DNA of 33,544 nt. It comes from Verrucomicrobiota bacterium. Lineage in GTDB: Bacteria; Verrucomicrobiota; Verrucomicrobiia; Limisphaerales; UBA9464. Below are positions 2,691-23,704 of the stretch, in pieces. Below the pieces are notes generated by a model. That model was not told the origin of the DNA, searched no databases, and saw only the letters and a program-made list of their open reading frames with translations. The first letter of the stretch is position 1, and each line of letters starts with the position of its first letter. A program made the translations under genes and the position numbers. The DNA is taken from the NCBI GenBank assembly GCA_947471985.1, contig CANIZL010000077.1, positions 1 to 33,544 of the forward strand, read 5' to 3'.

Positions 2691-2710
2691 AGCAGCCCCT
2701 CAGCCGCCTA
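2691..2710. repeat. 20-bp direct repeat, copy 2, overlapping the frr stop
   Basis: Second copy of the repeat at 2633-2652, 58 bp away. Its last three bases are the frr stop codon (TAG on the minus strand), so the repeat begins exactly at the gene end. Confidence 0.6.
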
Positions 2711-3268
2711 AACCTTCAAAATCTCGACTTCCTTGTGCGCCAGATGGTCGTCGACCTTTTTGATGTAGCCGTCGGTCAGCTTTTGCACTTCCGCCTCAGC
2801 CGTCTCGATCGCGTCTTCCGAAACACCGCCGTCCGTTTTGGCCTTCTTGAGTAATTCCAACGCCTGACGCCGTTCGGTGCGGACGGCCACGCGTCCGTCC
2901 TCGGCCATTTTCTTGCAGATCTTGACGAATTCCTGACGGCGCTCCGTGCTGAGTTCCGGGAGAATCAGACGCAGGAAGCGGCCTTGGATCGCGGGGTTCA
3001 AGCCCAGACCCGCCTGTTGAATGCCTTTTTCGATCGCCTTCAACGTACTCTGATCGAATGGCGTGACCACCAGCATGCGCGCCTCCGGGGCGGCGATGGT
3101 GGCCAGTTCTTTGAGGCGCATCCGCGAATCGTAGGCCTCGATGAAGACGTTTTCGATCAAGGACGGGGTGGCGCGGCCGGTGCGGATGCCGGCGAATTGG
3201 TGCACCACGTGCTCCTCCGTCTTCAGCATCTTTTCCTCGGCTTCAAACAGGATTTTTTCGATGGTCAT
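2708..3268 (-). CDS. frr: Ribosome recycling factor
   Basis: Ribosome recycling factor, which with EF-G splits post-termination ribosomes in the cytoplasm. The 186-residue length is the family norm. The N-terminal helix ends in the characteristic RTGRATPSLIENVFIEAY stretch, followed by the small domain (LKELATIAAPEARMLVVTPFD) and the conserved QGRFLRLILPELSTERR segment leading back into the three-helix bundle with a C-terminal K-V-D-D-H-L-A-H-K-E-E-like tail. It lies 54 bp downstream of pyrH on the same strand, the usual pyrH-frr order. No Shine-Dalgarno sequence is evident before the ATG at 3266-3268, in keeping with weak leader signals elsewhere in this window. Confidence 0.98.
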   Translation of the reverse strand: MTIEKILFEAEEKMLKTEEHVVHQFAGIRTGRATPSLIENVFIEAYDSRMRLKELATIAAPEARMLVVTPFDQSTLKAIEKGIQQAGLGLNPAIQGRFLRLILPELSTERRQEFVKICKKMAEDGRVAVRTERRQALELLKKAKTDGGVSEDAIETAEAEVQKLTDGYIKKVDDHLAHKEVEILKV

Positions 3269-3322
3269 AAGGTGAATCGGGATCGGTAGGTTGAGGGATG
3301 GAGGCGCGGAGAGGGGCGGAGT

Positions 3323-4066
3323 TCAGGGGACCACGAGGGTACCAACGGGATCGCCGAGAATAACGGCCCGCAGATTGTGCGGCTTGAAGAAGTCGAACAC
3401 CACGATCGGCATCTTGTTGTCCTGGCAGAGGGCGAACGCGGCGGCGTCCATGACCTTGAGCTGCTGGGTGAGGGCCTCCTGATACGTGACCGTGGAGTAA
3501 CGGCGGGCGTCGGGAAACAGCTTCGGATCCCGGTCGTAGATGCCGTCCACCTTGGTGGCCTTGAGCACGACTTCCGCATGGATCTCGTTGGCTCGGAGGG
3601 CGGCGGCGGTATCGGTGCTGAAAAATGGATTACCGGTGCCGGCGGCAAAGATGACCACGCGGCCCTTTTCGAGGTGGCGCACGGCCCGGCGGCGGATGAA
3701 GGGCTCCGCCACCTGACTCATCGGGATGGCACTCTGCACCCGGGTGGGAACCCCCTGTTTTTCGAGGGCGTCAGAGAGGGCCAGGGCGTTGATCACGGTG
3801 GCCAGCATGCCCATGTAGTCGCCCGTGGCGCGTTCGATGCCCCGCGCGCTGCCTTGCAATCCGCGGAAGATATTGCCGCCGCCAACCACGATCACCACCT
3901 CGACGCCGAGTTCGCGGACTTCGGCGACCTGACGGGCCATGTCGTGCACGGACTCCGGATTGATCCCCGCGCCCGCCTCGCCGCCCAGCGCCTCACCACT
4001 GAGTTTGAGCAGGACCCGGCGATATTTTGGGGTGTTCTTCGGAGCAGCAGTTTTTTTCGTCGGCAT
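3323..4066 (-). CDS. pyrH: UMP kinase (uridylate kinase)
   Basis: Bacterial UMP kinase of the amino acid kinase fold: ATP + UMP to ADP + UDP, in pyrimidine nucleotide biosynthesis. 247 residues. Visible motifs are the N-terminal LLKLSGEAL strand-loop, [13 protein letters not shown] for phosphate binding, [15 protein letters not shown] for the hexamer helix, [17 protein letters not shown] for UMP binding, [13 protein letters not shown], and [14 protein letters not shown] near the C-terminus. A 15-residue Lys/Pro/Ala-rich N-terminal extension precedes the domain, so an internal start cannot be excluded, but the ATG at 4064-4066 is the first available. frr follows directly. The rpsB-tsf pair that often precedes pyrH in bacteria is not upstream here; instead an exported propeller gene occupies that place. 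Confidence 0.98.
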
Positions 4067-5210: not shown

Positions 5211-8200
5211 ATGAAGCCCGCAGCATGGATGGCAGCGCTCGTAGTGGCGTTTTTCTCAACGTCGCGGGGAGTGTGCGCCGACGTCGCCCCCAGTGGCGGC
5301 GAATTCTTCGAACGCCGAATCCGGCCCGTGCTGGTGGAGCACTGCTACGAGTGCCACAGCGCGGCGACGAAGACCAAGGGGGGGCTTCGACTGGATTCCC
5401 GGGCGGACCTCCTCCGGGGCGGCGACAGCGGGCCGGCGATGGTGGTCGGGCAGCCGGACGAGAGCCGGATCATCGCGGCGGTGCGGCATCGGGATCCGGA
5501 TCTGGCGATGCCGGCGAAGAAACCCCAACTGCCCGCGGCGGTGATTGCGGACCTGGCGCAGTGGATCCGCACCGGCGCGGAATGGCCCGGATCCGTGGTG
5601 ACGGCGCCGGCATCCGGGATCGATCGCTTCAATCTGGCCGCACGGAAGGAACGGTTGCCGTGGATTTGGCAGACCCCCCAACGCCAGGCGGTTCCGTCGA
5701 CGGCGGGCGTGCCGGCGTCGACTGAGGTGGATCGTTTTCTGCGGGCGAAGTTGGCGGAGAAGGGACTGACTCCGGCGTCGCCGACCGACGATCGCACCTG
5801 GCTTCGCCGGGTGTATTTCGCCCTTACGGGCCTGCCGCCGACCCGGGAAGCGATGCACTCCTTCGCCGCGGATACGTCCCCGGAACGCCGGGAGCGCGTG
5901 GTGGATGCGCTGCTGGCGTCGCCCCATTTCGGCGAGCGTTGGGCCCGGCACTGGATGGACTTGGTGCGCTATGCGGAATCGCGGGGGCACGAGAGTGATT
6001 TTCCCATCGCCAATGCCTGGCGCTATCGCGATTACCTCGTCCGCGCCTTCAATGCGGATTTGCCGTACGATCGGTTTGTCGCGGAACACGTGGCGGGGGA
6101 TTTGTTGCCGCCGCGGTTGCATCCGGCGACGGGAGCGAATGAATCGGTGCTGGCCACCGGATGGGCGTTTCTGGGGGAGGAAAACCACAGCCCGGTCGAC
6201 ATCCGCCAGGACGAGTGCGAGCGCGTGGATAACAAGGTGGACGTCTTTTCGAAGACGTTCCTGGGACTGACGGTGGCCTGTGCCCGCTGCCACGATCACA
6301 AGTTCGACGCCATTTCACAGCGCGACTATTACGCGCTGAGCGGCTTTGTCCTGGGCTCCAGTTTTCGCCAGGTGCGGTATGAAACCATGGAACAGCATGC
6401 GCGGGCCGCGAAGGAACTCGCGGACTTGCGGGCGCGGCAAACCGTTCCGGTGGTGCGGGCCTTTGCGGCGGCGGTGACGCCGGCCCTTGCGTCGATGAGC
6501 GACTATCTGGTGGCGGCCCAGCGGACGCTGCGCGGCGAGACGGCGGAAGCCGTGGCCGGTTCGCTCGGGTTGGATCCGGTCCGCCTCACGGCTTGGACCG
6601 GGCATTTGCGTCAAGCCGCCGGAGTGTCGGCGCACCCGTTGCATTGGGTCGCCACGCTGGCGCTGGAAACGAACTCAGCGGCGGCGACGCGCCGGTTGGA
6701 TGAAGTGGCTCGCGCCGTGGCGGTTCCTTTCTCGCTGCCCGCCAGCAATCGTGTGGTGGCGGACTTTCGAGTCCCGGGGCAAACGCCGTGGAAGGTGGAT
6801 GGTCCGGTGTTTGGCTCCCGCCCGCTCGCGTTGGGTGAGGTTGTGCTGGGAACCAATCGCAACGGCGTGGGTCCGCTCGCCGCGGTCATGGGGTACGGCG
6901 CCGCCCGACGGGATGAATTCTGGAATCGACTCGCGTTGACCCCGGGCACGGAATCGGACGCGGGTTCCCTGGAAGCGACGGCGCGGGCCGGGCGCATGGT
7001 GCGTACGCCCACCATCACGCTGCAATCCGGTCGCCTGCACTATCTGTTGCGCGGGAAGGCCCGGGTTTATGCCGCGGTGGATTCCCATATCATGGTCGCC
7101 GGACCTTTGCACGGGGGACTGGTGTCGGGCTTCGACAGCGGAGCGCAGGTGGGTTGGGTGAGTCAGGATCTTTCGGCTTACAGCGGTCATCGCGTGCACT
7201 TGGAGTTTGCGCCCGATGGGTCCAATCCGCTTGAAATTCTGCTGGTGGTGGAGTCCCCGGAAAAACCCACCGCGTTGCCGGTGATGGCGTGGCAACCGAC
7301 CGGTCAACCCGGGTCCTTTGCGGCGGTGGCGGCGCAATGGCAGGCGGACGTGTCGGCGGCCGCGCAAAAATTGGGCGCGGAAAACCTGGGCGCAGACGCC
7401 CGGTCGGCTGCCCTCGCCGATTGGCTGGTGCAGAACCACGGATGGTTGGGCGCGGATGAAACCGCCCTGGCCGCGGCGGCAGCCACCTGGACGCGCGATC
7501 AACAGGCGCTGGCCCAATCGTTGCGTTGGGATTCACACACCGCGGTGTCGTGGTTTGACGGCACCGGCGTGGATGAAAATGTGCTGCTGCGCGGCAAGCC
7601 CTTCCGGCCCGGTGAACTGGCCCCCCGCGGTCTGCCGGCGGCCTTGGGGACGCCCGTGATCCATCGCCCGGATTCCAGCGGACGCGCTGAGTTGGCGCAG
7701 CAATTGATGGATCCGGCGAATCCGCTGGTCGCCCGGGTGATGGTGAATCGCGTGTGGCAGCATCTATTCGGACGCGGCATTGTGGCGACGCCCGATAATT
7801 TCGGATTCCTGGGCGAACGCCCGACGCATCCCGAATTACTCGATCATCTCGCGTGGCAGTTCGTGCACCAGGATCGGTGGTCGCTGAAGCAGTTGATCAA
7901 GCGTCTGGTGCTGACGGACACCTTTGCGATGAGCAGTCAGAGCACGAATGCCCGGGCGGCGGAAGTGGATCCGGCCAACGTCTGGTGGCATCGCATGCCG
8001 GTGCAACGATTGGAAGGCGAGGCCATTCGCGATGCTCTGCTGGTGGTGTCGGGACGTTTTGATCCGACGCCCGCCGAAGCCCCGATTCTGGTGCACCTCA
8101 ATGAATTCATTGTGGGTCGCGGTCGCCCCGACAAGGGCGGTCCGTTGGATGGCGAAGGCCGGCGCAGTCTGTACACGGCCATTCGCCGCAATTTCCTGCC

Positions 8201-8555
8201 GACGATGATGGTGGTGTTCGATTATCCCACGCCCTTCAGCACGGTCGGACGTCGCAATGTCACCAACGTTCCCGGACAAGCCCTGGCGTTGATGAACGAT
8301 CCCTTCGTGCACCAGCAATCCGGCGTCTGGGCCGAACGATTGCTGCGCGAATTGCCTACAGCTGGGGATGCGCCGCGGGTGGCCTGGTTGTTTGAAACGG
8401 CCTACGCGCGGCCGCCGAGTGCGGCGGAATCCCGGGCCTGTCTCGATTCCCTCGGGGAATTGCGGACCCTGCATACCGGGGAAGCCGAGGTCGCCGTGTG
8501 GAGCGATTTCTGCCACGCACTGGTCAACGCCAACGAGTTCATTTACCTAAACTGA
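5211..8555 (+). CDS. PSCyt1-DUF1549-DUF1553 cytochrome-type exported protein
   Basis: A 1,114-residue exported protein. A signal peptide (residues 1-24, ending GVCADV) precedes a Planctomycete-type cytochrome domain (PSCyt1, about 28-125) with a haem c motif C45-Y-E-C48-H49. DUF1549 (PSCyt2, about 172-385) follows, with ALTGLPPT, HWMDLVRYAESRGHE and a second CxxCH, C357-A-R-C360-H361, inside CARCHDHKFDAIS. Residues about 515-690 look like an inserted beta-sandwich with no family I can name. DUF1553 (PSD1, about 820-1114) closes the protein with NPLVARVMVNRVWQHLFG and the usual ANEFIYLN end. These families are confined largely to Planctomycetes and Verrucomicrobiota; an electron-transfer or polysaccharide-related role is suspected but unproven. 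The DUF1501 gene starts 3 nt after its stop, indicating co-transcription. Confidence 0.92.
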   Translation: MKPAAWMAALVVAFFSTSRGVCADVAPSGGEFFERRIRPVLVEHCYECHSAATKTKGGLRLDSRADLLRGGDSGPAMVVGQPDESRIIAAVRHRDPDLAMPAKKPQLPAAVIADLAQWIRTGAEWPGSVVTAPASGIDRFNLAARKERLPWIWQTPQRQAVPSTAGVPASTEVDRFLRAKLAEKGLTPASPTDDRTWLRRVYFALTGLPPTREAMHSFAADTSPERRERVVDALLASPHFGERWARHWMDLVRYAESRGHESDFPIANAWRYRDYLVRAFNADLPYDRFVAEHVAGDLLPPRLHPATGANESVLATGWAFLGEENHSPVDIRQDECERVDNKVDVFSKTFLGLTVACARCHDHKFDAISQRDYYALSGFVLGSSFRQVRYETMEQHARAAKELADLRARQTVPVVRAFAAAVTPALASMSDYLVAAQRTLRGETAEAVAGSLGLDPVRLTAWTGHLRQAAGVSAHPLHWVATLALETNSAAATRRLDEVARAVAVPFSLPASNRVVADFRVPGQTPWKVDGPVFGSRPLALGEVVLGTNRNGVGPLAAVMGYGAARRDEFWNRLALTPGTESDAGSLEATARAGRMVRTPTITLQSGRLHYLLRGKARVYAAVDSHIMVAGPLHGGLVSGFDSGAQVGWVSQDLSAYSGHRVHLEFAPDGSNPLEILLVVESPEKPTALPVMAWQPTGQPGSFAAVAAQWQADVSAAAQKLGAENLGADARSAALADWLVQNHGWLGADETALAAAAATWTRDQQALAQSLRWDSHTAVSWFDGTGVDENVLLRGKPFRPGELAPRGLPAALGTPVIHRPDSSGRAELAQQLMDPANPLVARVMVNRVWQHLFGRGIVATPDNFGFLGERPTHPELLDHLAWQFVHQDRWSLKQLIKRLVLTDTFAMSSQSTNARAAEVDPANVWWHRMPVQRLEGEAIRDALLVVSGRFDPTPAEAPILVHLNEFIVGRGRPDKGGPLDGEGRRSLYTAIRRNFLPTMMVVFDYPTPFSTVGRRNVTNVPGQALALMNDPFVHQQSGVWAERLLRELPTAGDAPRVAWLFETAYARPPSAAESRACLDSLGELRTLHTGEAEVAVWSDFCHALVNANEFIYLN

Positions 8556-8557
8556 TC

Positions 8558-9974
8558 ATGTCCCCCAGCGAACACCTGCCGCTGCCCCGGCTCTCCCGCC
8601 GTCGCATGCTCGCCCGTGCCGCGAATGGGTTCGGGGCCTTTGCGCTGTCGGCCCTGCTGGGGTCGCCGGCCCGGGCGGCATTGACCCGCCCGCTGGCCCC
8701 GAAATCGCCGCACGCCCGGCCGCGCGCGAAGAATGTCATCTTCCTGTTCATGGAGGGCGCGGTCTCGCAGGTCGACAGTTTCGATTACAAACCCCTGCTG
8801 GAGCGGCTTCACGGCCAGGATCCGCGTCAGGCCATCGGTAAACTCGAGAAAACCCAATTCGAGAACATTGGCAAGGTTTTGAAGTCGCCGTGGAAATTCG
8901 CCCAGCACGGTCAGAGCGGATTGTGGGTCAGCGATCTGTTTCCGCACGTGGCCCAGCGCGCGGATGATTTGTGCGTCTTGAAGTCGATGACTTCCGCGTT
9001 CCCGGAGCACACCAGTGCCAATTATTTTCTGCACAGCGGACTCGGCTTGCAGGGGCGGCCAAGCATGGGCGCCTGGGTGGCCTACGGACTCGGCAGTCAC
9101 AACGAAAATCTGCCCGGGTTCGTGGTGCTTAACGGCGGTCAGATTCCGTCGGGCGGACTGGACTGCTTTGGCAATGGGTGTTTGCCGGCGACGTATCAGG
9201 GCTCACTGCTCAACGCCAACGGAACGCCGCTGGCCAATGTGGTGCCGGGTGAAAAGGCGCCGGCCCAGCAACTCGCGAAACGCCGGCTCGTGGAGCGGCT
9301 GAATCAGGCCAATCTCCTCGCCAGCGGCGGCAATGACGCGTTGGAAAGTGCCATCGCCAACGCCGAACTGGCCGCCCGTATGCAGTCGACGGTGCCGGAA
9401 TTGATGGACCTCTCCGGGGAATCCGCCGCGACCCGGCGGCTCTACGGTCTGGACGCCGACTTTGTGCACACGCGCACCTACGGACGCCAGTGCCTGCTGG
9501 CGCGTCGCATGGTGGAACGCGGGGTTCGCTTCATTGAACTTACCATCCCGATGGTCGATGGCTATTCCCGCTGGGACGCGCACGGGGGGCTGGTGAAGAA
9601 CCACGGGGATAACGCCCGCGCGGTGGATCAGCCCATCGCCGGTCTGCTGCAGGATCTCAAGCAACGCGGTATGCTGGACGAAACCCTGGTGGTGTGGGCG
9701 GGCGAATTCGGCCGCACGCCGTTTGCGCAGGGTTCGGACGGGCGGGACCACAACGAATACGCCTTCAGCGTCTGGCTGGCGGGTGGCGGTGTGCGGCCCG
9801 GCATGGCCTACGGCGCGACGGACGAGTTTGGTTACAAGGCGGTGGATCACGTGCTGGAGATGCACGATCTGCACGCGACGATGCTGCATTTACTCGGCAT
9901 GGATCATACGCAATTGACGTTCCGTTTTGGCGGGCGCGACATCCGGCTCACGGACGTTCATGGGAGGGTTATCG

Positions 9975-9991
<17 letters not shown>
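8558..9991 (+). CDS. DUF1501 protein, Tat-exported, sulfatase-like fold
   Basis: 477 residues from the ATG at 8558, two bases after the preceding TGA; an upstream in-frame ATG at 8498 lies inside the previous gene and adds no signal. The N-terminus has a twin-arginine signal (S-R-R-R-M-L-A-R followed by an Ala/Leu-rich stretch ending SPARA, about residues 13-38), so it is probably exported folded, perhaps with a metal cofactor. The body has the DUF1501 hallmarks: VIFLFMEGAVSQVDSFDYKP near the start, FPEHTSANYFLHSGLGLQGR, and the conserved GEFGRTPFAQGSDGRDHNE block near residue 381. Family members are distantly related to alkaline phosphatase/sulfatase-type enzymes, but no substrate is established. 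In PVC genomes DUF1501 genes typically sit beside DUF1549/DUF1553 genes, as here on both sides. Confidence 0.92.
9962..9967 (+). promoter_or_regulatory. Shine-Dalgarno site deciding the start at 9975
   Basis: GGGAGG lies 7 nt before the ATG at 9975 and inside the coding end of the DUF1501 gene. It is one of the few clear ribosome binding sites in the window and favours 9975 over the upstream in-frame starts at 9927 and 9960. Confidence 0.6.
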
Positions 9992-12704
<2,713 letters not shown>

Positions 12705-12761: not shown

Positions 12762-15700
12762 ATGAATCTCCCTGGTGCGGCCCGCCTCATGGCGTGCGGA
12801 TTTCGGACGCCCCGTGTGAATCCGCCCGCGACTTCCGGCCGTGGGGCCGCGTCGTGGCGCGGCGATTTCTTGCGGATCGCCTGCCTTTTGCTGTTCACGC
12901 TGCTGCCGGTGAACGGCGGTGAATCGATAGCGCTGCACACCCGCGCCCGGGCACGATCCGCGGCCGATACGAATTCCTTTCCGATCGTGGAGCAGTCCGT
13001 GAACTGGGACGCGTCCCGCACGGCGGTGGTGATCTGTGACATGTGGGACAAGCACCATTGTCCCGACGCGACCGAGCGGGTGGGGGAGATGGCCCCGCGC
13101 ATGAACGAAGTCATCAAGGCGGCCCGGGCCAAGGGCATGCTCATCATCCACTGCCCCAGCGATACGATGGGCTTTTATCAGGATCATCCGGGCCGCAAAC
13201 TGGCGCAGGCCGCACCCAAGGTGGAAACGACCGTGCCGCTGCAAGGCTGGTGCTCGTTGACCGGCGTGAAGGAGCCAGCCCTGCCCATTGATGATTCCGA
13301 CGGCGGTTGCGATGGATGTCCCGAATGTCCGGGATACGGCGCGTGGACGCGGCAGCATCCGGCGTTGGAAATCCGCGACGGCGACGCGATTACCGATTCG
13401 GCCGAGGCGTTTTATCTGATGCGGCAGCGCGGGATCACCAACGTCATCGTCATGGGGGTGCACATCAACATGTGCGTTCTCGGCCGACCGTTTGCGATCC
13501 GCCAATTGGTGGCCCAGGGACAGAACGTCGTGCTGATGCGCGATCTCACGGACTCGATGTATAATCACCGGAAGGCGCCGTACGTGTCACATTTCCGGGG
13601 CACCGAACTCGTGGTGGAGCACATCGAGAAGTTCTGGTGCCCCAGTATCACGAGTGCCGATTTTCTGGGGGGCGAGCGGTTTCGTTTTCAGGGGGATACC
13701 CCCAAGCGGATCGTTTTGGTGATCGGAGAGAATGAGTATCACACCTGGGAGACACTGCCGGAATTTGCGCGTCAGGAACTCGCGTGGCGCGGGTACGAGA
13801 TCGCCACCGTCCAGGCGTCGCCCAACGACGGCGATCCCAACTTTCGGGATATTGGGGAAATCCGGAAGGCCGATTTGATTGTGCTCAGCGCACGGCGGCG
13901 GACGCCCCCGAAAGCCATGCTGGAGCTGTTGCGGGCGCACGTGGCGGCGGGCAAGCCCGTGGTTGGACTGCGTACCGCAAGTCACGCCTTTGCCGCCGAA
14001 CCCACGGATGCCGCGTTCGCCGCGTGGCCGACATTCGATGAGGAAATTCTCGGTGCGAAGTATGGCGGTCACCATGGCAACAAGCCGCCCACCGCCCCGC
14101 TGACGATCATCGAACAGGTTCGCTCCAATGCGTCGCACCTTGTGCTCACCGGGGTGAAACCGGGGCCGATTTCGGTGACCTCGCACCTCTACAAATACAG
14201 CCAGGTCGCTCCCACCGTGACGCCACTCCTGCGCGGATGGGTGGAGGGTCGGGATGTTCTCGAGCCGGTGGCGTGGGTGAATACCGCGGCGAATCGCCGG
14301 GTCTTCTACACGTCGTTGGGCAATCCTGATGATTTTCAACTGCCGTTCTTCCGCCGCCTGTTGCTCAACGGAATTTTGTGGTGCCTGCATGATCCGGTGC
14401 CGCCGGCCCAGGTGAGCCTCGGTAGCCTGGCCGGTAGGGAATCCGCTAGTGCCGGGGCCACTGCTGCGCGGGTGGTCGCTCCGGTCGTCGTCGCCGCGGC
14501 ACCGGCGCCGGCGCCGACACCCGATGCGGTCGTCACCTCGCCCAAGGCGCCGGTCCCGGACCTGCCGCAAGAGGCCAAGGCGCCCGCGTTGAGTCCGACG
14601 GAGGCCGTTCGACATTTCCAGGTCGCGGAGGACCTGCAGTGGGAACAAGTGCTCGCGGAGCCCACCATTACCCAGCCTGTATTTCTCAACTTCGACGAAC
14701 GGGGCCGGATGTGGGTGGTGGAGTATCGGCAATATCCTTCGCCCGCCGGATTGAAAATGATCAGCCGCGACAGCGTTTGGCGCGCCGTTTACGACCGGGT
14801 GCCGCCGCCGCCGCCGCATCACTTCAAGGGGGCCGATCGGATCACGATTCACGAAGACACGGATGGGGACGGAACGTTTGATTCCCATAAAACCTTTATC
14901 GACGGGCTTAACATTGTCACCTCGGTCGAGCGCGGTCGGGGCGGCGTCTGGGTTTTGAATCCGCCGTATCTGCTGTTCTATCCGGATGCGAACCATGACG
15001 ACGTGCCGGATGGGGATCCGGAAGTGCGGCTTTCCGGATTCGGTTTGGAAGATACGCATAGCGTGGCGAATTCCCTGCGGTGGGGGCCGGACGGCTGGCT
15101 TTACGGGGCGCAGGGCAGCACGGTGACGGGCAACATTCTCACGTACGGCGCCGACGGGAAGCCGCTGCATCCGAAGCCGATCTATTCCCAGGGACAAAAC
15201 ATCTGGCGCTATCATCCCGAGAAGCGGATTTACGAGGTGTTTTCCGAGGGCGGGGGAAATGCGTTCGGCTGCGAGATCGACAGTCAGGGACGTATTTTCT
15301 CCGGTCATAACGGCGGTGACACGCGAGGCTTTCATTATCAGCAAGGCGCGTATCTGCAAAAGGGCTTTGAGAAACACGGGCCGCTGTCGAACCCGTACGC
15401 CTTTGGTTATTTCCCGGCAATGCCCCAGGGCAGTGTGCCGCGGTTCACCCACAATTTCATCATCTACGATCACGGTGCGCTGCCCGCCCATTACGCGGGG
15501 CGGATCTTCGGCGTGGAACCCATCCAGGGCCGGATCGTTGAAACCGAGATGCTGCCCGATCAATCGTCCTACCGGACCCGCGACATCTCCCGGCCGGTGA
15601 CCAGTGATGATCGTTGGTTCCGCCCGGTGGATATCAAGGTCGGCCCCGACGGCGCGATTTATGTCTGCGATTGGTACGACCAGCAGGTGAATCATTTCCG

Positions 15701-17543
15701 CAATCACGAAGGCCAGATCGATACCAGCAATGGCCGCATCTACCGACTCAAGGCGACGGGAGCCAAGGCCCAACGGGCGGAGGATTTCTCGCGCCTCAGC
15801 TCGGTGGAATTGGTGCAACGCCTGGCGCATCCCAATCGCTGGGTGCGGCAGACGGTCCTGCGTCTGCTGGCGGATCGGCGGGATGCCTCGCTGATACCCA
15901 TCCTGTCTGCGGCGGTCGCGCAAGGCGCCGGTCAGATCGCGCTGGAAGCCCTGTGGGCCTTGAATTTGTCCGGTGGCTTCACGGACGCCGCCGCCCTCCC
16001 GGCCTTGGCGCATCCCGACCCCTTCGTTCGTCTGTGGGCCGTCCGGTTGTTGGGGGATGGTCGTCGGGTGTCACCGGAGGTTGCCGAGCGTCTGGTGGCA
16101 CTCGGCGGGCAGGAACCGAATTTGGAGGTGCGCAATCAACTGGCGGCCACCGCCCGACGGCTGCCGGCAGCGGAGGGACTGGCGATGGTTCGCGGGCTCG
16201 TGCGACGGGTTGAAGATGCCCGGGATAACCGGATGCCGTTGCTCCTCTGGTGGGCGATGGAAACCCAGTGCGAAGAGCATCGTGATGCGGTGGTGCATCT
16301 TTTTGAGGAGCCGGCGTTCTGGTCGAGCCCCTTGGTGGAGGCGCATCTGCTGGAGCGCATCGTCCGGCGTTTCGCTCAGGCCGGGACGCGGCGCGATCTA
16401 TTGACCTGCGCCCGGCTGTTTGCGCTGGCGCCGTCGGTGGAGCACAGCCGTCGTTTGATGAACGGTTTTGAAACCGCGTTCAAGGGACGAACCCTGGCCG
16501 GGCTTCCGGCGGAACTGGTTCAGGCGATGGCCCGTCACGGTGTGGGTTCGCCGGCTTTCGCCCTGCGTCAGGGCGATCCCCGGGCCGTCCAGCGGGCCTT
16601 GGCGGTGGTGGCCGACGAGACCGCGGCCCGGAACGAACGCATGGAATTTCTCGGGGTAATGAGCGAAGTGCCGGTTCCCGGCGCGGTGCCGGTTTTGAGT
16701 CGGGCGTATCGCGGAGTGGTGCAGGACGATGGTTTGCGCAAGGCCATCCTCTCGGCGTTTCAGATTTATGACGATCCCGCCATCGCGGACGTGGTCTTGA
16801 GCGCCTATTCGGCCCTGGGGTCCGAATCCCGGCCCACCGCACAGATGCTGCTGGCGAGCCGGTCGAGTTGGGCGCGGAAATTGGCGCAGGCGATCAACAA
16901 GAAGCAGTCCGGCTGGGCGGGCCCCGCCATCAAACCGGAATCCTTTCCACTGAATATCGTCCGCAAATTGAAGCAGCTGCGGGATCCGGAATTGGTGACG
17001 GTGCTGAACCAGATCTGGCCGAACAGCGGAAGTCCAACCACGGCGGAGATGGATCAAAAGATTCATCAATTGGCGGAGGTAATCCGCGGCGGGAGCGGTG
17101 ATCCCTATCAGGGCCGGACGCTGTTTCAAAACACCTGCGGCGGCTGCCACAAACTGTTCACTCAAGGAGCCGATATCGGGCCGGATCTGACGGTTTATAA
17201 TCGGGCGGATCTGGAATCCATGCTGCTGGCGATCGTGAATCCCAGTGCGGAGATCCGCGAAGGCTACGAAAATTATTCGGTGGAGACGCGGGATGGGCGT
17301 TCGCTCTCGGGCTTTCTGGCCGAGCAGGATGATCGCACGATCGTGTTGCGCGGACTGGACAATCAGAATGTGATCCTGCCCCGAACGGATTTGGTGGAGT
17401 TAAAGCCAGCGGGCGTGTCGCTGATGCCGGAAGGCTTGCTGGAGGGCTTCGATGCGCAGCAAACGCGGGATCTGTTTGGGTACCTGCGCAGTACACAACC
17501 GCTCGTGGGTGAGCCGCCCCGTCGGGCCGCTTCAACCAAGTGA
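12762..17543 (+). CDS. Isochorismatase-ThuA-dehydrogenase-HEAT-cytochrome c fusion
   Basis: A 1,593-residue exported multidomain protein. A hydrophobic segment at about 37-50 (IACLLLFTLLPV) is the likely signal peptide, after an unusually long basic n-region. Residues about 85-295 are isochorismatase-like: D93 in VVICDMWD and the Cys nucleophile C238 in HINMCVLG, with a C183-x-x-C186-x-x-C189 cluster. About 315-545 resembles ThuA (IVLVIGENEYHTWETLPEF, PVVGLRTASHAF). An Ala/Pro linker (about 550-615) leads to a membrane-bound-dehydrogenase-type propeller (about 621-1000; compare TIGR02604) with VFLNFDERGRMWVVEY and HEDTDGDGTFDSHKTFIDGL. HEAT-like repeats fill about 1010-1430, and a C-terminal haem domain (compare TIGR02603) has C1459-G-G-C1462-H1463 and a candidate axial Met in SLMPEGLLEGF. 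It begins 57 nt after the preceding gene. A periplasmic sugar or polyol oxidation role is inferred. Confidence 0.9.
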   Translation: MNLPGAARLMACGFRTPRVNPPATSGRGAASWRGDFLRIACLLLFTLLPVNGGESIALHTRARARSAADTNSFPIVEQSVNWDASRTAVVICDMWDKHHCPDATERVGEMAPRMNEVIKAARAKGMLIIHCPSDTMGFYQDHPGRKLAQAAPKVETTVPLQGWCSLTGVKEPALPIDDSDGGCDGCPECPGYGAWTRQHPALEIRDGDAITDSAEAFYLMRQRGITNVIVMGVHINMCVLGRPFAIRQLVAQGQNVVLMRDLTDSMYNHRKAPYVSHFRGTELVVEHIEKFWCPSITSADFLGGERFRFQGDTPKRIVLVIGENEYHTWETLPEFARQELAWRGYEIATVQASPNDGDPNFRDIGEIRKADLIVLSARRRTPPKAMLELLRAHVAAGKPVVGLRTASHAFAAEPTDAAFAAWPTFDEEILGAKYGGHHGNKPPTAPLTIIEQVRSNASHLVLTGVKPGPISVTSHLYKYSQVAPTVTPLLRGWVEGRDVLEPVAWVNTAANRRVFYTSLGNPDDFQLPFFRRLLLNGILWCLHDPVPPAQVSLGSLAGRESASAGATAARVVAPVVVAAAPAPAPTPDAVVTSPKAPVPDLPQEAKAPALSPTEAVRHFQVAEDLQWEQVLAEPTITQPVFLNFDERGRMWVVEYRQYPSPAGLKMISRDSVWRAVYDRVPPPPPHHFKGADRITIHEDTDGDGTFDSHKTFIDGLNIVTSVERGRGGVWVLNPPYLLFYPDANHDDVPDGDPEVRLSGFGLEDTHSVANSLRWGPDGWLYGAQGSTVTGNILTYGADGKPLHPKPIYSQGQNIWRYHPEKRIYEVFSEGGGNAFGCEIDSQGRIFSGHNGGDTRGFHYQQGAYLQKGFEKHGPLSNPYAFGYFPAMPQGSVPRFTHNFIIYDHGALPAHYAGRIFGVEPIQGRIVETEMLPDQSSYRTRDISRPVTSDDRWFRPVDIKVGPDGAIYVCDWYDQQVNHFRNHEGQIDTSNGRIYRLKATGAKAQRAEDFSRLSSVELVQRLAHPNRWVRQTVLRLLADRRDASLIPILSAAVAQGAGQIALEALWALNLSGGFTDAAALPALAHPDPFVRLWAVRLLGDGRRVSPEVAERLVALGGQEPNLEVRNQLAATARRLPAAEGLAMVRGLVRRVEDARDNRMPLLLWWAMETQCEEHRDAVVHLFEEPAFWSSPLVEAHLLERIVRRFAQAGTRRDLLTCARLFALAPSVEHSRRLMNGFETAFKGRTLAGLPAELVQAMARHGVGSPAFALRQGDPRAVQRALAVVADETAARNERMEFLGVMSEVPVPGAVPVLSRAYRGVVQDDGLRKAILSAFQIYDDPAIADVVLSAYSALGSESRPTAQMLLASRSSWARKLAQAINKKQSGWAGPAIKPESFPLNIVRKLKQLRDPELVTVLNQIWPNSGSPTTAEMDQKIHQLAEVIRGGSGDPYQGRTLFQNTCGGCHKLFTQGADIGPDLTVYNRADLESMLLAIVNPSAEIREGYENYSVETRDGRSLSGFLAEQDDRTIVLRGLDNQNVILPRTDLVELKPAGVSLMPEGLLEGFDAQQTRDLFGYLRSTQPLVGEPPRRAASTK

Positions 17544-17983
17544 CGAGGTCGCGTGGAAGGGGCGTTGAATGATTGCGGGTCGGACGCCCGACGTTCTGTG
17601 GGCTGTTTTGCGGTCGTTGGTGAAGGGTGCAGCAGCGAGGGTAGGGTGGGGCGGCGATCCCGGGGGCGTCCGATTATCCCAATTTTGCAATGAAGTTGTT
17701 CTTATGGGGAGAGTGAGAAAATTGCGGGAATAATTGCGCGATCACCGTTAAGCGATTGTGTTGGTAGATATGCATCGGCTCGTACATGACCGACGGCAAC
17801 TCGCGAGCGACCGCAGCGGATTTGGGCGCCCGTCGGAGGTGTCGTCGTGGGCGAAAATTTCGGTAATGGATCGTTTTCCGGGCGAGCGATCGGGGATGGT
17901 GATCGGGCGGGTGATACCGCGATGAAGGCCCTTTTCGACGCACTGTTGAGTGCTGCGACAACGCGGGCGGAAACTCCGTGACC
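17544..17983. other. 440-bp intergenic region before the histidine kinase
   Basis: No credible gene on either strand. A small stem-loop (GTCGG 17579-17583, CCGAC 17588-17592) lies about 40 nt after the stop of the fusion gene but has no strong T tract. The hexamer ATTGCG occurs twice 12 bp apart (17721-17726 and 17733-17738) in an AT-richer stretch (about 17676-17770), which is the most promoter-like part. TAGATA at 17765-17770 could be a -10 box, but no matching -35 box was found. Confidence 0.5.
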
Positions 17984-20803
17984 ATGCCAACTGACTGTAA
18001 CGAGGACTTGGCGGGAATCGCACCGCGGGATCGGCCGGTGCGTGCCGGCGCCTGCTGGAGGGCGGTTGGAGCCGTATGTTTCCAGGCGGTTTGGCTCACG
18101 TGTCTGCTGGCTGTCCGGTTGGGCGCCGCGGAATTGCCGACCCTCACCAATTGCGTTTCCATCAAAAGCCTGTCGGTGGACGGCGCGGCCCAAAAATTTC
18201 CCGTCCGCGTGCGCGGGATCATCACCTCGGCAAATTACGATTTTGGCCCACCCGGCGAGGCGGATTTCTTCCTGCAGGATGAAACGGGCGGGGTCTACGT
18301 CGAAGCCATTAAACCGAAGTCTCCGGTGGCTGTCGGTGACCTGGTGGAAGTCTCCGGGGTGACCGATCCCGGGGGGTACTCGCCGATGATCGTTCCACAA
18401 AGCATGGAGCGGATCGGGACGGCGGAGTTGCCAACGCCCCATCCGGCGATGGCCCTGCCGTTGTCGATCGGCCGATGGGATGCCGAGCGGGTGGTGATCG
18501 AAGGCACCGTTCGTGGGGTCAGCGTTTACGCTAAGCATGCGGAGCTCCGGCTGATGTTGCCCGATGGACCGGTGGTTCTGGCGGTTCAGCGACGCACCCC
18601 GGGTCCGTTGCCGCCACGTCTGCTGGGCGCGCGCGTTCGGATCAGCGGCATCGCGGCACCGGTGTTTAATGAGCGCCGGCAGGCTACCGGGGCGGCCATG
18701 GTGGTGACGCCCAGGGATGATTTTCATATCTTGGCGTCAGGTTCGGAGGACTATACTTCCGTGACGGCTACTCCGATCTCGCGGCTTCTGCAGTTCAATC
18801 AACTGCGACGGGACGACCAGTTGACGCGGATTAGTGGTACGGTGACCGCCAAACTCTCCAGCGAAGCAGCGGGGCACGGTGACCGCCTTTCCCATGAATC
18901 CTTCTATGTTCAGGATACCTCGGGCGGTGTCCTGGTGCGCCTGCGCAAGGACACTGTCGTGAAGGCGGGCGACCGCGTGGATTTGCTGGGATCCCCCATG
19001 GCCGAGAACCGATCGGTGGTCTTCATGGCGGATGAAGTCATTTCGCTGGGAAACGGTAAATTGCCGATGGCCTTGCACGTGAGTCCGGATACCATTGAGG
19101 ATCTCGAATTTCATGAACGCCGGGTGGCGGTCGAAGGCCGCGTTCTGGCGGTGGGAAGTTCGCTGCCCCCGGCACCGATGGAGGTAGCGATCGAGTTCGG
19201 TAAGAACTCCATGGTGGTCAACCTGCCCGCCGTCCGGAAGCCTGGACGCGCCCTCGCAGTGAACAGCCGGATTCGCGTGATGGGGGTCCTGGATAACCGG
19301 GCGACGGCCGATCGGGATTTTCTGGGCTATACGATCCATGTGGCCAGTCTGGATGATATAGTGATGCTGAGTGGCCCGCCGATGAATCCCATTCGCCCGC
19401 TGTTCTGGGCGTTGGGGACTCTCGGTGCGCTGGCTTTGAGTTGGGGCTTTGCTTTGCGCGCCCGGGTGGCCGCCCGAACGGCTCTGCTCTCCACCGCCAA
19501 TACGGAGTTGCTGCGGGAGATCGTGCAGCGGCAGGAAACCGAAAACGAATTACGCAAAGCCAAGGACGAATCGGAACAGGCCTTTCACGAATTGCAGGTG
19601 ATCAGCGAGGAATTACAGCGGGCGCATAGTCGTACGGAGCAGCTCGTCATCCGGGCCGATGCCGCCAACCGCGCCAAGAGCGAGTTTCTCGCCATGATGA
19701 GTCATGAAATCCGGACCCCGATGAATGGCGTGCTGGGCATGACGGAATTGCTTCAACAATCGCGGCTGGATGCCCATCAACGGGTGTGGGCGGACACCAT
19801 CGCCCATAGCGGCGAAGCCCTGATGACGATCATCAATGACATCCTGGATCTCTCCAAGATTGAAGCGGGCCGATTGACGTTGGAGGAAGTGGATTTTGAG
19901 TTTCGGCCCCTGGTTCAGGCAGTGGTGCTGCTCGTGGGGCATTCGGGCCATGGCAAACCGGTTACCGTTCAACTCGAATGTTCTCCCGGCGTGCCTGCGT
20001 GGTTTCGGGGGGACGCCGGCCGACTCCGGCAGATCCTGCTGAATCTCGTGGGAAATGGTTTGAAATTCACCACCGCGGGCGTGGTCCGGGTCCGGATGCA
20101 GTCGACGCCCGTGGGGGAGGATCGCGCCCGGCTTCGGTGCGAGGTGATCGATACCGGGATTGGCATCCCGGCCGACAAATTGGCGCTGCTCTTTCAGCCC
20201 TTCCAGCAAGTCGATTCCTCGTTGGCACGGCGTCACGGCGGCACGGGCCTGGGTTTGGCGATCTCCAAACGTCTGGTGGATCTGATGTCCGGCAACATGG
20301 GGGTGGAGAGTGAAGTCGGCCGCGGCTCCACGTTCTGGTTTGAAATCAACCTCGCGGTAGCCGCGGAGATCGCCGCGCCGCTGACCCGCCCGCCGGTCCC
20401 CGTGGCGTTCGACCAATTGAACGGGCTGCCCGTCCTGGTGGTCCAGGGCCAACCGGTGCAACGTCGCTTGGCCACGTTGTTGCTGACCAAATTGGGGTGC
20501 CAGGTGGCGAGCGTGGCGACGGGAGGTGAGGCGTTGGAACATCTCCGCACCGAGGGACGCGCCGTCGTCTTGTTCGATTCGCAGCTGCCGGATGTGGATG
20601 GGATTGAACTGGCGGGTGCCATTCGGGAGTGGGAGCGGTCCCGGACCGCGAACGGAGTGCGGCCGGTCGGGTTGATCACGCTGGTATTGGGCGAGAGTCC
20701 GGAGGATCACCAGCGAGCGATCCAGGCGGGCATTGCGGCAACGGTGACCAGCCCGCTAACCCTTGTGCAACTTCGGGAAGCGCTGGTGGCCTGCGTTGGC
20801 TGA
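17984..20803 (+). CDS. Hybrid sensor histidine kinase with OB-fold-like sensor and altered receiver
   Basis: 939 residues from ATG 17984 (an in-frame GTG lies 6 nt upstream). A hydrophobic N-terminal segment (about 25-48) probably exports a sensor region (about 50-465) made of repeated OB-like units, each with V-R-G-x-I/V and [14 protein letters not shown] or [15 protein letters not shown] transmembrane helix at about 472-496 is followed by a coiled coil (about 500-555). The kinase core is intact: H574 in [12 protein letters not shown] box [18 protein letters not shown], and [14 protein letters not shown]. The C-terminal receiver (about 815-939) keeps the phospho-acceptor-like D865 ([11 protein letters not shown]), but the acidic pair is Q821-G822 and the conserved Lys is S923. 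It may therefore not accept phosphate normally. No separate response regulator is adjacent, so the output partner is unknown. Signal sensed: unknown. Confidence 0.93.
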
Positions 20804-21074
20804 ACTGTGACCCAACAGGCTGTGAAGTCTATCGATCGTGCTGCGGCCGATGAGACTGACGATGGTGACGTGCGGTTGGGCGGTCTTGATTCTTAAAGGA
20901 TTGTCCTTGGCGGTCGTTGCGAAGTGGCGATTGCCGGTGCAGGGGTTCGCCTGGATCGGTGTCGTCAGCGACTCATTCTACGCACTTCACGAACCAATTT
21001 ACCTGTTTCTCCGAGCTGAATTTCTTCACGGCCGCCCGACCGGAAACATTCTGGTGCTGATACCCGTGGTAGTC
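20804..21074. other. Leader region of the asparagine-synthetase-like gene
   Basis: The frame of the following gene stays open back to a GTG at 20838, but codon third positions turn A/T-rich at about 20990-21050 (for example TCA, GCA, CTT, GAA, CCA, ATT), unlike the GC-ending codons of the gene body, and the translated product has no recognisable domain. I therefore treat this as a probable untranslated leader and promoter region. Confidence 0.5.
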
Positions 21075-22667
21075 ATGGGGCGGGTGGGAGCACTGGACGG
21101 GTTGACTGGACCGCTGGGGCATCACGAATATCGGGTGATGTTTTCCGTGCCCGAACGTCCGTATCTCCACCTGATCCGAAAGGAAAATCAGGTGGATTGC
21201 CTCGGCGTGCCGCGAGTTGGCCTCTATCAGGACATCGCCTCGCCAACCTGCCACGACGGGGTGTTTTTGGAGTGGTCGTGGGATGGTGCCGTTTTGCGGT
21301 TTCAAAACTGCCTTTTCGGGCTTTATCCGCTTTATTATCACGCCACTGCGGAGGAGATCTGTCTTTCGACGGATTTGATGCGCCTGCTGGCGGAGGGTGT
21401 TTCCGCGGAACTGGACGACGCCGCTTTCGCCTTTTTCCTCCGTCGAGGTTTCTGTGCGGGTAACGACACACCCTTCCGCAGCATCCGTATCCTGCCACCC
21501 AATTCCACGGCGGAATGGCGGCCGGGCAGGGGGCTGCGGATTTCCGGCGGCCCGCCCGTCGTGCGACGCCAGAACCGGACTCGTTCCCAGGCGATGGAGG
21601 GGCTCAATACGGAGTTTCGATCCGCCATCCGTCGTCGCGCCCCGCGCGGGGAGTTTGTCGTGCCCTTGAGTGGCGGACGTGATTCGCGGCATGTGTTGCT
21701 GGAACTCGTCGAGGCCGGATATCGCCCCCAACGATGCCTGACGGCACGGCATTTCCCCCCGTTGGCGAATGAAGACGCCCGCATTGCGGCGCTGGTGGCT
21801 GCCGCCGTCGGGGTGGAACACACGGTGCTCGACGCCGCACCGTCCCTGGTGGAGCGGGAACTGCGGAAGAATCCGCGCATGAATTATGCCACGGATTGGA
21901 GTGCGTGGCACCTGGCGGTGTTGGACGCCCTTGGGGATAACACCTCCCACCTTTATGCCGGGTACGGCGGGGATACGGTAACGCGCGGAATCATTCTGGA
22001 ACCGAAGCGGATGGAGCTCTGGCTGGCGGGTCAGTTGGAGGAACTGGCCACCTACATGATGGGAGTTCATTCGGGGATTGAGCCGGCCTTGCGGGAATTG
22101 CTGAAGCCGGAGGTTTACGAGCGCTTTAGTCTCGATCTGGCGCGGGACCGCCTGCTGGAAGAATTGCATCAGCATGTGGATCAACCCAATCCGGATCTTT
22201 CGTTTGTGGTGCAAAATGCCCTGCGCCGCCGGACGTGCCCACAGTTGTTCCCCCTGACGGCCGAGGTCACTCATGTCTATGTTCCCTTCATGGATGCGTC
22301 CCTCTATGCGTTCCTGGCTTCGCTGCCGTTGGAACTGCTCCTGGACAAGACGTTTCATACGGAGGCGATTCATGCGGCGTATCCCGCCTACCGACACGTA
22401 CCCTTCGAAGCCCCCAGTCAACCCGGGGTATCCGATCAGGAATTTTTTCGCCGGTTTGCCCGGGAGTCCTCGGCGTTTGTTTTGTGTCGCGGCCATTCCG
22501 ACATCTTTGATATCCGCCGGATTTTGGAGCGATTCAGTGGCTGTCGTACCTCGGGTGATCACCGGATGGTGAATTGGTTCGCGCCGCAACGGATTCTGGG
22601 ATTGCTGCAACTGGAGGCGGCTGTCGAGCTCAATGTGCGCCCGTCTCTGCCGTCATCTTTGCCATGA
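21075..22667 (+). CDS. Asparagine-synthetase-like protein without a glutaminase cysteine
   Basis: About 530 residues from ATG 21075; starts at 20850 (ATG) or 20838 (GTG) would add up to 79 residues of unsupported sequence. The C-terminal part is an AsnB-type ATP-pyrophosphatase domain with the PP-loop SGGRDSR at about residues 199-205, a variant of SGGLDSS. The N-terminal 120 residues keep the shape of the class II glutaminase-like domain (FGLYPLYYH corresponds to the D-x-x-G-x-x-P-L-Y-Y signature; STDLMRLLAEG) but no catalytic N-terminal Cys is present, so ammonia from glutamine is unlikely. Such proteins often lie in surface polysaccharide or natural-product loci and may form amide bonds on sugars or other substrates; true asparagine synthesis is less likely. 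Its TGA overlaps the ATG of the next gene by 4 nt, implying translational coupling. Confidence 0.88.
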   Translation: MGRVGALDGLTGPLGHHEYRVMFSVPERPYLHLIRKENQVDCLGVPRVGLYQDIASPTCHDGVFLEWSWDGAVLRFQNCLFGLYPLYYHATAEEICLSTDLMRLLAEGVSAELDDAAFAFFLRRGFCAGNDTPFRSIRILPPNSTAEWRPGRGLRISGGPPVVRRQNRTRSQAMEGLNTEFRSAIRRRAPRGEFVVPLSGGRDSRHVLLELVEAGYRPQRCLTARHFPPLANEDARIAALVAAAVGVEHTVLDAAPSLVERELRKNPRMNYATDWSAWHLAVLDALGDNTSHLYAGYGGDTVTRGIILEPKRMELWLAGQLEELATYMMGVHSGIEPALRELLKPEVYERFSLDLARDRLLEELHQHVDQPNPDLSFVVQNALRRRTCPQLFPLTAEVTHVYVPFMDASLYAFLASLPLELLLDKTFHTEAIHAAYPAYRHVPFEAPSQPGVSDQEFFRRFARESSAFVLCRGHSDIFDIRRILERFSGCRTSGDHRMVNWFAPQRILGLLQLEAAVELNVRPSLPSSLP

Positions 22668-23704
22668 ACATGTCCGATATTTCCGCGCCGGCGATTCCGG
22701 CAACCGGTCCGAGCCGGGAGTGTTCGGAGTCCTGGCTATCCGACCGTGATGCGCAGGCGGCCGCGCTGGTGATGGAGTTGGATCGGGTTTTGCCGCCCAG
22801 CGCGGGGTTGCTGGTGGTGGATGAGGGTTACCTCGATCTGAGTCGTTGGGTCGCCCGCCGAAAGTTTTTCCGGCTCGACTACGGAGTGCATGGGCCGCCG
22901 GCCGAGGCGGTGGTAGTTCGGCAGTATCAACAGCACCGTCAGGCGGGTGCCGACTTGGTGTTGGTGGCTTGGCCCGCCTTGGGATGGCTGGAGCGGTATC
23001 CCGCCTGGAATGCCCTTTTGCTCTCCAGCGCCGAAAGTGTTCGTGCTGGCGACGGATTTGTCGTGTTGGATCTCCGGCCCGGCCCGCGGACAGAACGTGA
23101 GCGGATGCAGACGGTCGGGGAGGAGTCCCTGCGGTCGGAAATTGGGCGGCTTCAGACCGAAATTGCCGGGATCGGAAAGGTTCGTCAGACGGAGCACACC
23201 CGCGAAATCGAACGACTGCGGGCGCTGGAACTCATCGCGCAGAAATCACTCGAGCAACTGACCCGGAAATGTGCTGATCTAAAACAGCGCTGCCATCAGT
23301 TGGAATTGCTTAACGATCAGCAGAATTGGCGGCTGCGGGTTGGCCGATTGATCCGGGCGAAAGTCTCGCCAGTGTCGAGATTGGTGATCGCGACGGGTGG
23401 CGATGATGCGTTGCTGGAACTGAGTCCCCAGCCGGGTTGGCATTTTCCTCAGCTTCCGGACGGAGCGCACGGTGGGTCGCCCGCCGACGGCTTCGAACTG
23501 GTCACCCAAATCGAAGCCCTCCGTGAACGAGGGGCAACCCATTTACTCTTGCCTGCCTGGCTGGACTGGTGGTTGGCGTTTTACCCGGAGTTCCGCGACC
23601 ATTTGCGGGCGGTGGGAGTTCCGCTGGTGAGCGATGCGGATGCCCTGCTGTTCGCGCTCGCCGACAAAGCCGCCCCCGAAAGTCCAACGCCGATGCCGGC
23701 CTAG
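22664..23704 (+). CDS. Coiled-coil protein with two similar alpha/beta domains
   Basis: 346 residues from ATG 22664, chosen because it forms an ATGA overlap with the preceding stop. No signal peptide. The N-terminal domain (about 30-130) has LLVVDEGYLDL and later ADLVLVAWPALGWLERYPAWNALL-type sequence. A long coiled coil follows (about 143-226, rich in E, R, L and Q). The C-terminal domain (about 237-342) has LVIATGGDDALLEL, GWHFPQLPDG, and ATHLLLPAWLDWWLAFYPEF. Both domains share a pattern of hydrophobic strand with D, then a GAxxLLxPAxxxWWLxxYPxF-like strand-helix, which suggests internal duplication. From memory, a domain of this pattern is found attached to bacterial glycosyltransferases in polysaccharide loci. 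With the AsnB-like neighbour this points to glycan synthesis or modification, but the activity is not known. Confidence 0.8.
   Translation: MNMSDISAPAIPATGPSRECSESWLSDRDAQAAALVMELDRVLPPSAGLLVVDEGYLDLSRWVARRKFFRLDYGVHGPPAEAVVVRQYQQHRQAGADLVLVAWPALGWLERYPAWNALLLSSAESVRAGDGFVVLDLRPGPRTERERMQTVGEESLRSEIGRLQTEIAGIGKVRQTEHTREIERLRALELIAQKSLEQLTRKCADLKQRCHQLELLNDQQNWRLRVGRLIRAKVSPVSRLVIATGGDDALLELSPQPGWHFPQLPDGAHGGSPADGFELVTQIEALRERGATHLLLPAWLDWWLAFYPEFRDHLRAVGVPLVSDADALLFALADKAAPESPTPMPA

Follow-up and report, generated by a model that had tools for sequence, protein, structure and literature searches.

The window analysed here is a stretch of 33,544 nucleotides from a Verrucomicrobiota bacterium (contig CANIZL010000077.1 of assembly GCA_947471985.1, forward strand). 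It contains at 12762..17543, on the forward strand, a single frame open for 1,593 residues that joins an isochorismatase-fold domain (hereafter ISO), a ThuA domain, a propeller, a HEAT-repeat array and a heme domain. The question raised by this locus is whether these modules hydrolyse and then oxidise one substrate outside the cytoplasm, as an earlier note on the DNA had suggested, or whether their fusion points to something else. We find that the five-module architecture is a recurrent feature of the lineage, and that carbohydrate processing is the best-supported role of the fusion, its exact chemistry being open.

A five-module frame and its recurrence

The five module types that the earlier note had read from the frame were each recovered over their curated cut-offs. 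With Pfam the scores were 34.1 bits for PF00857 isochorismatase (cut-off 27), 51.3 bits for ThuA, PF06283 (33.4), 238.3 bits for DUF7133 (27), 32.0 bits for HEAT_2 (27.7) and 23.5 bits for Cytochrom_C (21.3), and with NCBIfam 247.6 bits for TIGR02604 (122.2) and 115.9 bits for TIGR02603 (68.15). On the forward strand, ISO occupies residues 59-310 (12936..13691; Pfam, AlphaFold model, fold search and alignments) and ThuA residues 313-546 (13698..14399; Pfam, model and fold search). They are followed by a linker rich in Ala and Pro at residues 547-604 (14400..14573; 15 Ala and 11 Pro in 58 residues), which leads into the TIGR02604/DUF7133 propeller of sugar-dehydrogenase fold at residues 605-1005 (14574..15776; Pfam, NCBIfam, model and re-alignment). 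The HEAT-repeat helical array covers residues from about 1006 to 1400 (15777..16961; Pfam and model), and the TIGR02603 heme domain residues 1446-1577 (17097..17492; NCBIfam and homology to PDB chains), with CGGCH at residues 1459-1463 (17136..17150) as the sole CxxCH of the protein. The AlphaFold model of ISO and ThuA (506 residues) had a mean predicted local distance difference test (pLDDT) score of 91.9 and that of the propeller-HEAT-heme remainder (997 residues) a pLDDT of 81.3. The last three modules had been taken for a known unit of the Planctomycetes-Verrucomicrobia-Chlamydiae (PVC) group, and indeed the order TIGR02604, HEAT_2, TIGR02603 is that given in the description of the Verrucomicrobia protein Lac161_ORF7.

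Since the window's genome is a 180-contig assembly, the frame could in principle be an artefact of assembly or reading frame that joins neighbouring genes. We reject this explanation, the probability of which we regard as negligible, because the complete five-module frame recurs in other genomes: it is present in 26 of 57 named loci, and all 26 sequences are distinct. At the remaining named loci the fusion is cut at the locus end in four, the two-domain form (ISO and ThuA) is found in 21, one two-domain frame is cut at its end, another is broken, and the first domain stands alone in four (in L071 in part only). The same conclusion follows from the family, where by hand count 32 of 50 genomes have ISO and ThuA together in a frame of at least 1200 residues; here frame length stands for fusion, and the count takes in genome G004, which matches the query from residue 82 onward at the start of a contig. 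Altogether, a search with ISO-ThuA matched 46 of the 50 genomes at E up to 1e-20. The fusion is cut off at a contig end in one further genome (G027), ten genomes hold the two-domain form only, three hold pieces or single domains only, and four hold none. A propeller stands behind ISO-ThuA in 26 of 30 loci from the family search, the window's own included, and the window's genome additionally encodes a second, two-domain ISO-ThuA gene with 67% identity (L002/L012).

In the order, where at most the best seven candidates per genome were scored, 115 of 195 genomes matched at E up to 1e-60. Counted by hand, at least 28 had a frame above 1150 residues covering ISO and ThuA, and at least 32 had only the shorter two-domain form. 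A sample of the phylum gave matches at E up to 1e-30 in 6 of 288 genomes, the window's own included, and among the matches listed (at most the best five candidates per genome) both domains were found in the window's own genome only. A locus titled Planctomycetaceae (L061) comes from genome G525; in the phylum to which that genome belongs, 20 of 199 genomes matched at E up to 1e-60, with no frame of 1200 residues or more among the matches listed, again from at most seven scored candidates per genome. The full fusion is present at L058, titled Planctomycetota. A unique architecture is therefore rejected, as it recurs across genomes of the family and order. As to whether it had already been characterised, no description of the five-module fusion was found in the literature on isochorismatase with ThuA, Verrucomicrobia and Planctomycetes; the few papers that combine isochorismatase with ThuA, or ThuA with Planctomycetes, deal with other subjects to judge by their titles, and the main text of PMC5615132 mentions neither ThuA, isochorismatase nor TIGR02604.

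A quick tree was built from 45 ISO-ThuA rows (25 fused and 20 two-domain, with L067 left out). It requires nine changes between the fused and two-domain states, six of them forced by well-supported branches, and the two labels are more clustered than in all but one or two of 500 shuffles. The C-terminal halves of the fused proteins share 51 to 79% identity with that of the window, as do those of the split genes at L036 and L040, and three other TIGR02604 proteins of the window's genome are 30 to 33% identical to it. The best fit is a single old fusion that was later split or lost repeatedly, although gain and loss are not distinguished by the tree.

The isochorismatase-fold domain and its active site

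The frame has a hydrophobic stretch, a probable export signal, at residues 36-48 (12867..12905, forward strand), and a comparable stretch stands directly before the ISO domain in 60 of the 61 open reading frames (ORFs) tested at a threshold of 1.6 (the window's own included, one gene counted twice, L067 left out). The sole ORF below the threshold, L070, scored 1.52, and its N-terminus resembles by eye a signal of the twin-arginine translocation (Tat) type. Because this stretch is kept before the domain in relatives, the fusion protein is probably exported, in keeping with the signal peptide proposed before; the surprise that had been expressed at an isochorismatase domain behind such an N-terminus is justified. 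The ATG at 12762 probably lies upstream of the true start, for which the TTG at 12870 is a plausible candidate, as is another start codon close to the hydrophobic stretch.

The fold of the first domain was clear from profile and structure searches, which alone succeeded; a sequence search of the single ISO domain against PDB chains gave no match. PF00857 matched at E up to 0.01 in all 30 aligned ISO domains, and one relative, L011, fell below its cut-off with 18.3 bits. The model aligned with RutB (8blm) at Z 17.8 and a root-mean-square deviation (rmsd) of 3.0 over 176 residues, and the closest solved folds were RutB and the triuret and biuret hydrolases, with Z of 16 to 18. The first 300 residues thus match the isochorismatase fold both by PF00857 and by comparison with RutB. 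The adjoining ThuA model aligned with the ThuA-like protein 4e5v at Z 21.4 and rmsd 3.0 over 222 residues, and a sequence search of it against PDB chains gave one chance-level match only. It shares with ThuA-like proteins (PF06283; 4e5v, 4jqs and 1t0b) a Pfam score over cut-off and a fold similarity of Z 19 to 21, and differs from them in its position behind an isochorismatase-fold domain.

The active site was assessed on an alignment of 30 ISO domains, to which later finds from other fusions were added to give 40 rows, with identities down to about 29%. Asp93, Trp95, Arg106, Arg122, Asp208, His234 and Cys238 are invariant in all 40 rows, as are Arg260, Asp261, Asp264 and Glu289, which is what would be expected of a working site. 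By profile alignment, Asp93 (13038..13040) and Cys238 (13473..13475) correspond to the catalytic Asp and Cys of TrtA, BiuH and RutB, with Cys238 at the position of the nucleophiles Cys162 of TrtA and Cys175 of BiuH. The triads are described as Asp24-Lys129-Cys162 in TrtA (PMC7948467) and Asp36-Lys142-Cys175 in BiuH, where the Lys is reported to be replaceable by Arg alone, at about 1/25 of the activity (PMC5806882). In the ISO alignment, however, there is no conserved Lys column between Asp93 and Cys238. RutB Lys133 is profile-aligned, beside an 8-residue gap, to residue 213, a Ser in the fusion protein, which in the 40 rows is Ser in 21, Thr in 7, Asn in 5, Asp in 2, Arg in 2, Lys in 1 and something else in 2; aligned without a gap, Lys133 would fall instead on residue 205, which is Lys in 5 of the 40.

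Since, on the evidence of sequence alignment, the Lys is not conserved at either possible position, standard isochorismatase catalysis is rejected for this group and ISO cannot be read as a standard hydrolase. Residue 290, which lies after Cys238, is Lys in 33 of 40 rows. In the 30-row alignment, six columns hold Arg or Lys in 28 rows or more, with Arg predominating in each. Lys290 or a conserved Arg may stand in for the missing Lys. The group also departs from the signature of the ureide hydrolases: at two positions after the catalytic Asp, Trp replaces Gln in 40 of 40 rows, and at five positions after it His replaces Phe in 39 of 40. ISO therefore shares with RutB, BiuH and TrtA the fold and the catalytic Asp and Cys, and it differs in the Lys, in these signature residues, in its hydrophobic export-type N-terminus and in its fusion to sugar-related modules. 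It appears to be an isochorismatase fold without the full Asp-Lys-Cys triad rather than a textbook member, and of the complete isochorismatase-like hydrolase that had been claimed the fold stands and the triad does not.

Two rival explanations bear on this domain. The resemblance of ISO to RutB and to the triuret and biuret hydrolases would fit an enzyme that hydrolyses small nitrogen compounds, such as a ureide or an amide, outside the cytoplasm and has nothing to do with sugars, the fusion then serving co-regulation only. We consider this very unlikely, given the altered signature residues and the fact that the recognisable partners of ISO (described below) are mostly sugar enzymes or carbohydrate-binding modules. 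Alternatively, ISO and ThuA might be catalytically silent and act as binding or oligomerisation modules for the fused enzyme, as the missing catalytic Lys and the swapping of partners would allow. Isochorismatase-fold proteins are often oligomers. BiuH, for instance, is described as a tetramer (PMC5806882). Nevertheless, we regard silent modules as rather unlikely, because Asp93 and Cys238 are invariant across such distant sequences, and because the single-domain and two-domain versions are common and are not explained by a purely accessory module.

The propeller-HEAT-heme unit

In its most explicit form, the proposal of hydrolysis and oxidation in sequence is a relay, in which a canonical cysteine amidohydrolase step is followed by oxidation of the sugar part by a dehydrogenase of the pyrroloquinoline quinone (PQQ) type, with electrons passed to the heme. 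For its first step the ISO fold and Pfam matches speak in favour and the unconserved triad Lys against. The second step finds support in the fold of the propeller, which aligned with the apo-form of a PQQ sugar dehydrogenase (3a9g) at Z 21.1 and rmsd 3.3 over 290 residues, and with 6h7t at Z 21.0. On re-alignment with VIA-align, PQQ sugar dehydrogenases and AA12 enzymes came first, at Z of about 21, followed by propellers of the HHIP, NHL and SMP-30 types at about 17 to 19.4. In a Foldseek search with the 997-residue model, the top rank went to large assemblies of helical or WD type (8hmf, E 4.6e-5), and a glucose dehydrogenase (7cdy, E 1.1e-4) stood in third place; the sugar-dehydrogenase reading of the propeller therefore derives from the structural re-alignment and not from the Foldseek ranking.

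The cofactor site gave a divided picture. His144, Arg228 and Asn229 of the Acinetobacter enzyme are named as important around PQQ in PMC6881810. By motif reading, the His and the Asn of the PQQ site are each kept in 29 of 30 rows, which again favours the relay, whereas the position equivalent to the PQQ-facing Arg228 is Gly in 27 of 30 rows and Arg in none, which counts against it. These positions rest on motif reading because the profile comparison with E. coli YliI was confined to 61 C-terminal columns, aligned at a probability of 6.8%. A search for pqqE in the window's genome gave six matches, all far below the cut-off (the best 40.4 against 381.35 bits), a further point against the relay but a weak test, as 0 of 14 controls passed; pqqC matched in 0 of 49 genomes, where the control was also silent. 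PQQ dependence should not be taken as given, in view of this Gly and of the lactose hydrolysis by a protein with the same last three modules (see below). Compared with the PQQ sugar dehydrogenases (sGDH and AA12), then, the fusion protein shares the propeller fold (Z about 19 to 21), the His and the Asn, and differs at the Arg position and in having a covalent-heme-type domain and a HEAT array on the same chain.

At its heme end the protein shows homology to the diheme cytochrome Kustd1711 (7zs0, E 3.6e-11). Met1555 of the fusion protein is aligned to M292 of that cytochrome, which is the position substituted in 7zs1 and 7zs2. The C, C and H of CGGCH are invariant in 30 aligned heme-domain rows, and the fusion protein differs from Kustd1711 in having one CxxCH only, at the end of a long chain. 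The intact heme motif and the Met position would argue for some redox role, and they belong to the points in favour of the relay.

A quite different chemistry is suggested by Lac161_ORF7 (AGW45552), which is described as a TIGR02604-HEAT_2-heme protein encoded on a Verrucomicrobia cosmid. Purified from E. coli, it hydrolyses lactose, with a Km of 1.8 mM and a kcat of 13.2 per s in a glucose release assay (PMC5342196). Eighteen homologues of it in Paludisphaera borealis are described as remote relatives of a putative glycoside hydrolase family (PMC5352709); the mention of the protein in PMC7823827 is a citation only. Its three modules follow the same order as those in the C-terminal 1,000 residues of the fusion protein, and it is described with these three only, that is, with no isochorismatase or ThuA. 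Because a protein with the same three modules hydrolyses lactose, the label 'sugar-oxidising' that had been given to this unit should not be assumed: the propeller fold, the kept His and Asn and the heme agree with it, but the loss of the PQQ-site Arg and the measurement of Lac161_ORF7 as a beta-galactosidase do not. The heme-based redox role and the published lactose hydrolysis are not yet reconciled. The 3-keto-glycoside pathways of DUF1080 proteins (PMC9007349) were considered as a possible model for glycoside cleavage assisted by redox chemistry.

Partner swapping and a role in carbohydrate processing

The modules also occur apart, which again tells against the relay. This was seen in twelve further regions picked by unusual frame length. 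In four of them (L112, L113, L118 and L119) ISO is fused to an alpha-L-fucosidase of family GH29 with its C-terminal domain, and in two (L108 and L109) ISO-ThuA is joined to a propeller like that of SMP-30/gluconolactonase. One region (L114) has ISO with propeller, HEAT and heme and no ThuA, and two have ThuA and propeller without ISO, complete to the heme in L115 and in a broken frame in L117. At L110 ISO is accompanied by a weak esterase match just below cut-off (20.9 against 21). Of another ISO type, both genes scanned with Pfam carry CHB_HEX_C and NPCBM modules; one lies in the window's own genome (L011:3945-5543, reverse strand) and the other at L019:8283-9926 (forward strand).

These combinations (ISO with ThuA; ISO with propeller and heme; ThuA with propeller and heme; ISO with GH29), together with the nine switches in the tree, imply no obligatory relay, and the claim that a substrate is hydrolysed and oxidised in sequence is not upheld. 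We consider the relay quite unlikely. Since ISO recombines with sugar-enzyme partners, it seems tied to carbohydrates rather than to a fixed order of hydrolysis and oxidation.

We therefore put forward, tentatively and at somewhat less than an even chance, that the fusion is an exported modular carbohydrate-processing protein. This reading draws on the fusion of ISO to GH29, SMP-30-type propellers, CHB_HEX_C and NPCBM elsewhere, on the lactose hydrolysis reported for a protein of the Lac161_ORF7 type (PMC5342196), and on separate genes that keep the order ISO-ThuA, propeller-HEAT-heme: at L040 the second gene lies 231 bases downstream of the first, and at L036 about 2.2 kb downstream. It draws likewise on the ISO residues that are invariant in all 40 rows, on the eighteen Paludisphaera homologues of Lac161_ORF7, on a Laminin_G_3 domain in the upstream neighbour, and on an NPCBM-type ISO gene directly upstream, on the same strand, of the fusion or ISO-ThuA gene in 7 of the 57 named loci (L019-L023, L052 and L072; the Pfam composition was checked in L019 only and the others were assigned by size class). 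In such a protein, two small hydrolase-fold modules, ISO and ThuA, would be tethered by the Ala/Pro linker to the propeller, the HEAT scaffold and the c-type heme. Cys238 would attack an acyl, amide or lactone-type bond on a glycan-derived substrate, the work of the missing Lys being done perhaps by Arg 106, 122, 145, 247 or 260, by Lys290 or by another residue. ThuA might hold or process the sugar and the propeller cleave or oxidise the glycoside, with the heme passing electrons on if the reaction is oxidative.

Several points weigh against carbohydrate processing, beginning with the lack of a conserved Lys in ISO. To our knowledge, none of the isochorismatase-fold domains in this group has a known activity, and the nearest solved folds of ISO, RutB and the biuret and triuret hydrolases, act on ureides and not on sugars. 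Fusion to a sugar enzyme is association and does not establish the substrate; the lactose result concerns Lac161_ORF7, which is likened to the fusion by its published description and not by sequence. The twelve regions, chosen as they were, allow no frequencies to be derived, and in two of them (L111 and L116) ISO has no Pfam partner. Finally, the earlier note had asked whether separate genes for the modules are adjacent elsewhere, and although they stand in the same order at L036 and L040, a propeller-HEAT-heme gene lies downstream on the same strand in only these 2 of the 21 two-domain loci, where the flanks are often short.

Two observations belong beside these loci. At L028, one of the 21, a propeller-HEAT frame lies divergently upstream of the two-domain gene. 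At L111 and L116, about 470 to 540 residues without a Pfam match precede ISO, and this N-terminal stretch could represent either read-through from upstream or a new partner.

In the window, three genes on the forward strand (5211-12704) overlap one another upstream of the fusion gene. They encode, in order, a PSCyt1-PSCyt2-PSD1 protein (5211..8555), a DUF1501 protein (8498..9991) and a PSCyt2-Laminin_G_3-PSD1 protein (9927..12704), all assigned with Pfam, the last ending 57 bases before the fusion gene. From this spacing, the four genes are likely to form one operon. A hybrid histidine kinase/response regulator follows on the same strand at 17978-20803, 434 bases downstream of the fusion gene, and is a possible regulator. 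Beyond it lie a gene with a weak asparagine-synthase domain (20838-22667; 23.9 bits, cut-off 21) and, overlapping it, a frame of 376 residues with no Pfam match over cut-off (22574-23704). Genes for a ribosome recycling factor and for a member of the amino acid kinase family (2708-4066) and for RNase HII (32418-33074) indicate an ordinary chromosomal setting. The DUF1501 neighbourhood was set aside as proof of function: the 6.4-Mb genome of the window holds 58 DUF1501 matches, 57 of them over cut-off, and with so many copies and unequal flanks the presence of a DUF1501 match in 17 of the 57 named loci is weak. The same genome contains 75 match segments to the modules of the fusion.

A more general reading, which we regard as possible but doubtful, is that ISO represents a subfamily of exported enzymes of isochorismatase fold in the PVC group, whose active site has been rebuilt (Asp93 and Cys238 together with invariant Arg, His and Asp residues, and without a Lys in the customary position). 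They would then form a class of cysteine hydrolases, so far undescribed, that are active on carbohydrates and used as a plug-in module. If this is true, the ISO module would be used with fucosidases, with NPCBM modules and with heme-linked propellers. PVC genomes hold dozens of copies each of propeller-heme, DUF1501 and PSCyt/PSD proteins, the functions of which are open. A module that is found both on propeller-heme proteins and on a recognisable glycoside hydrolase would offer a concrete functional handle on them: in the ISO-GH29 fusion the substrate class of the partner is known, and an answer obtained there could carry over to the heme-linked version.

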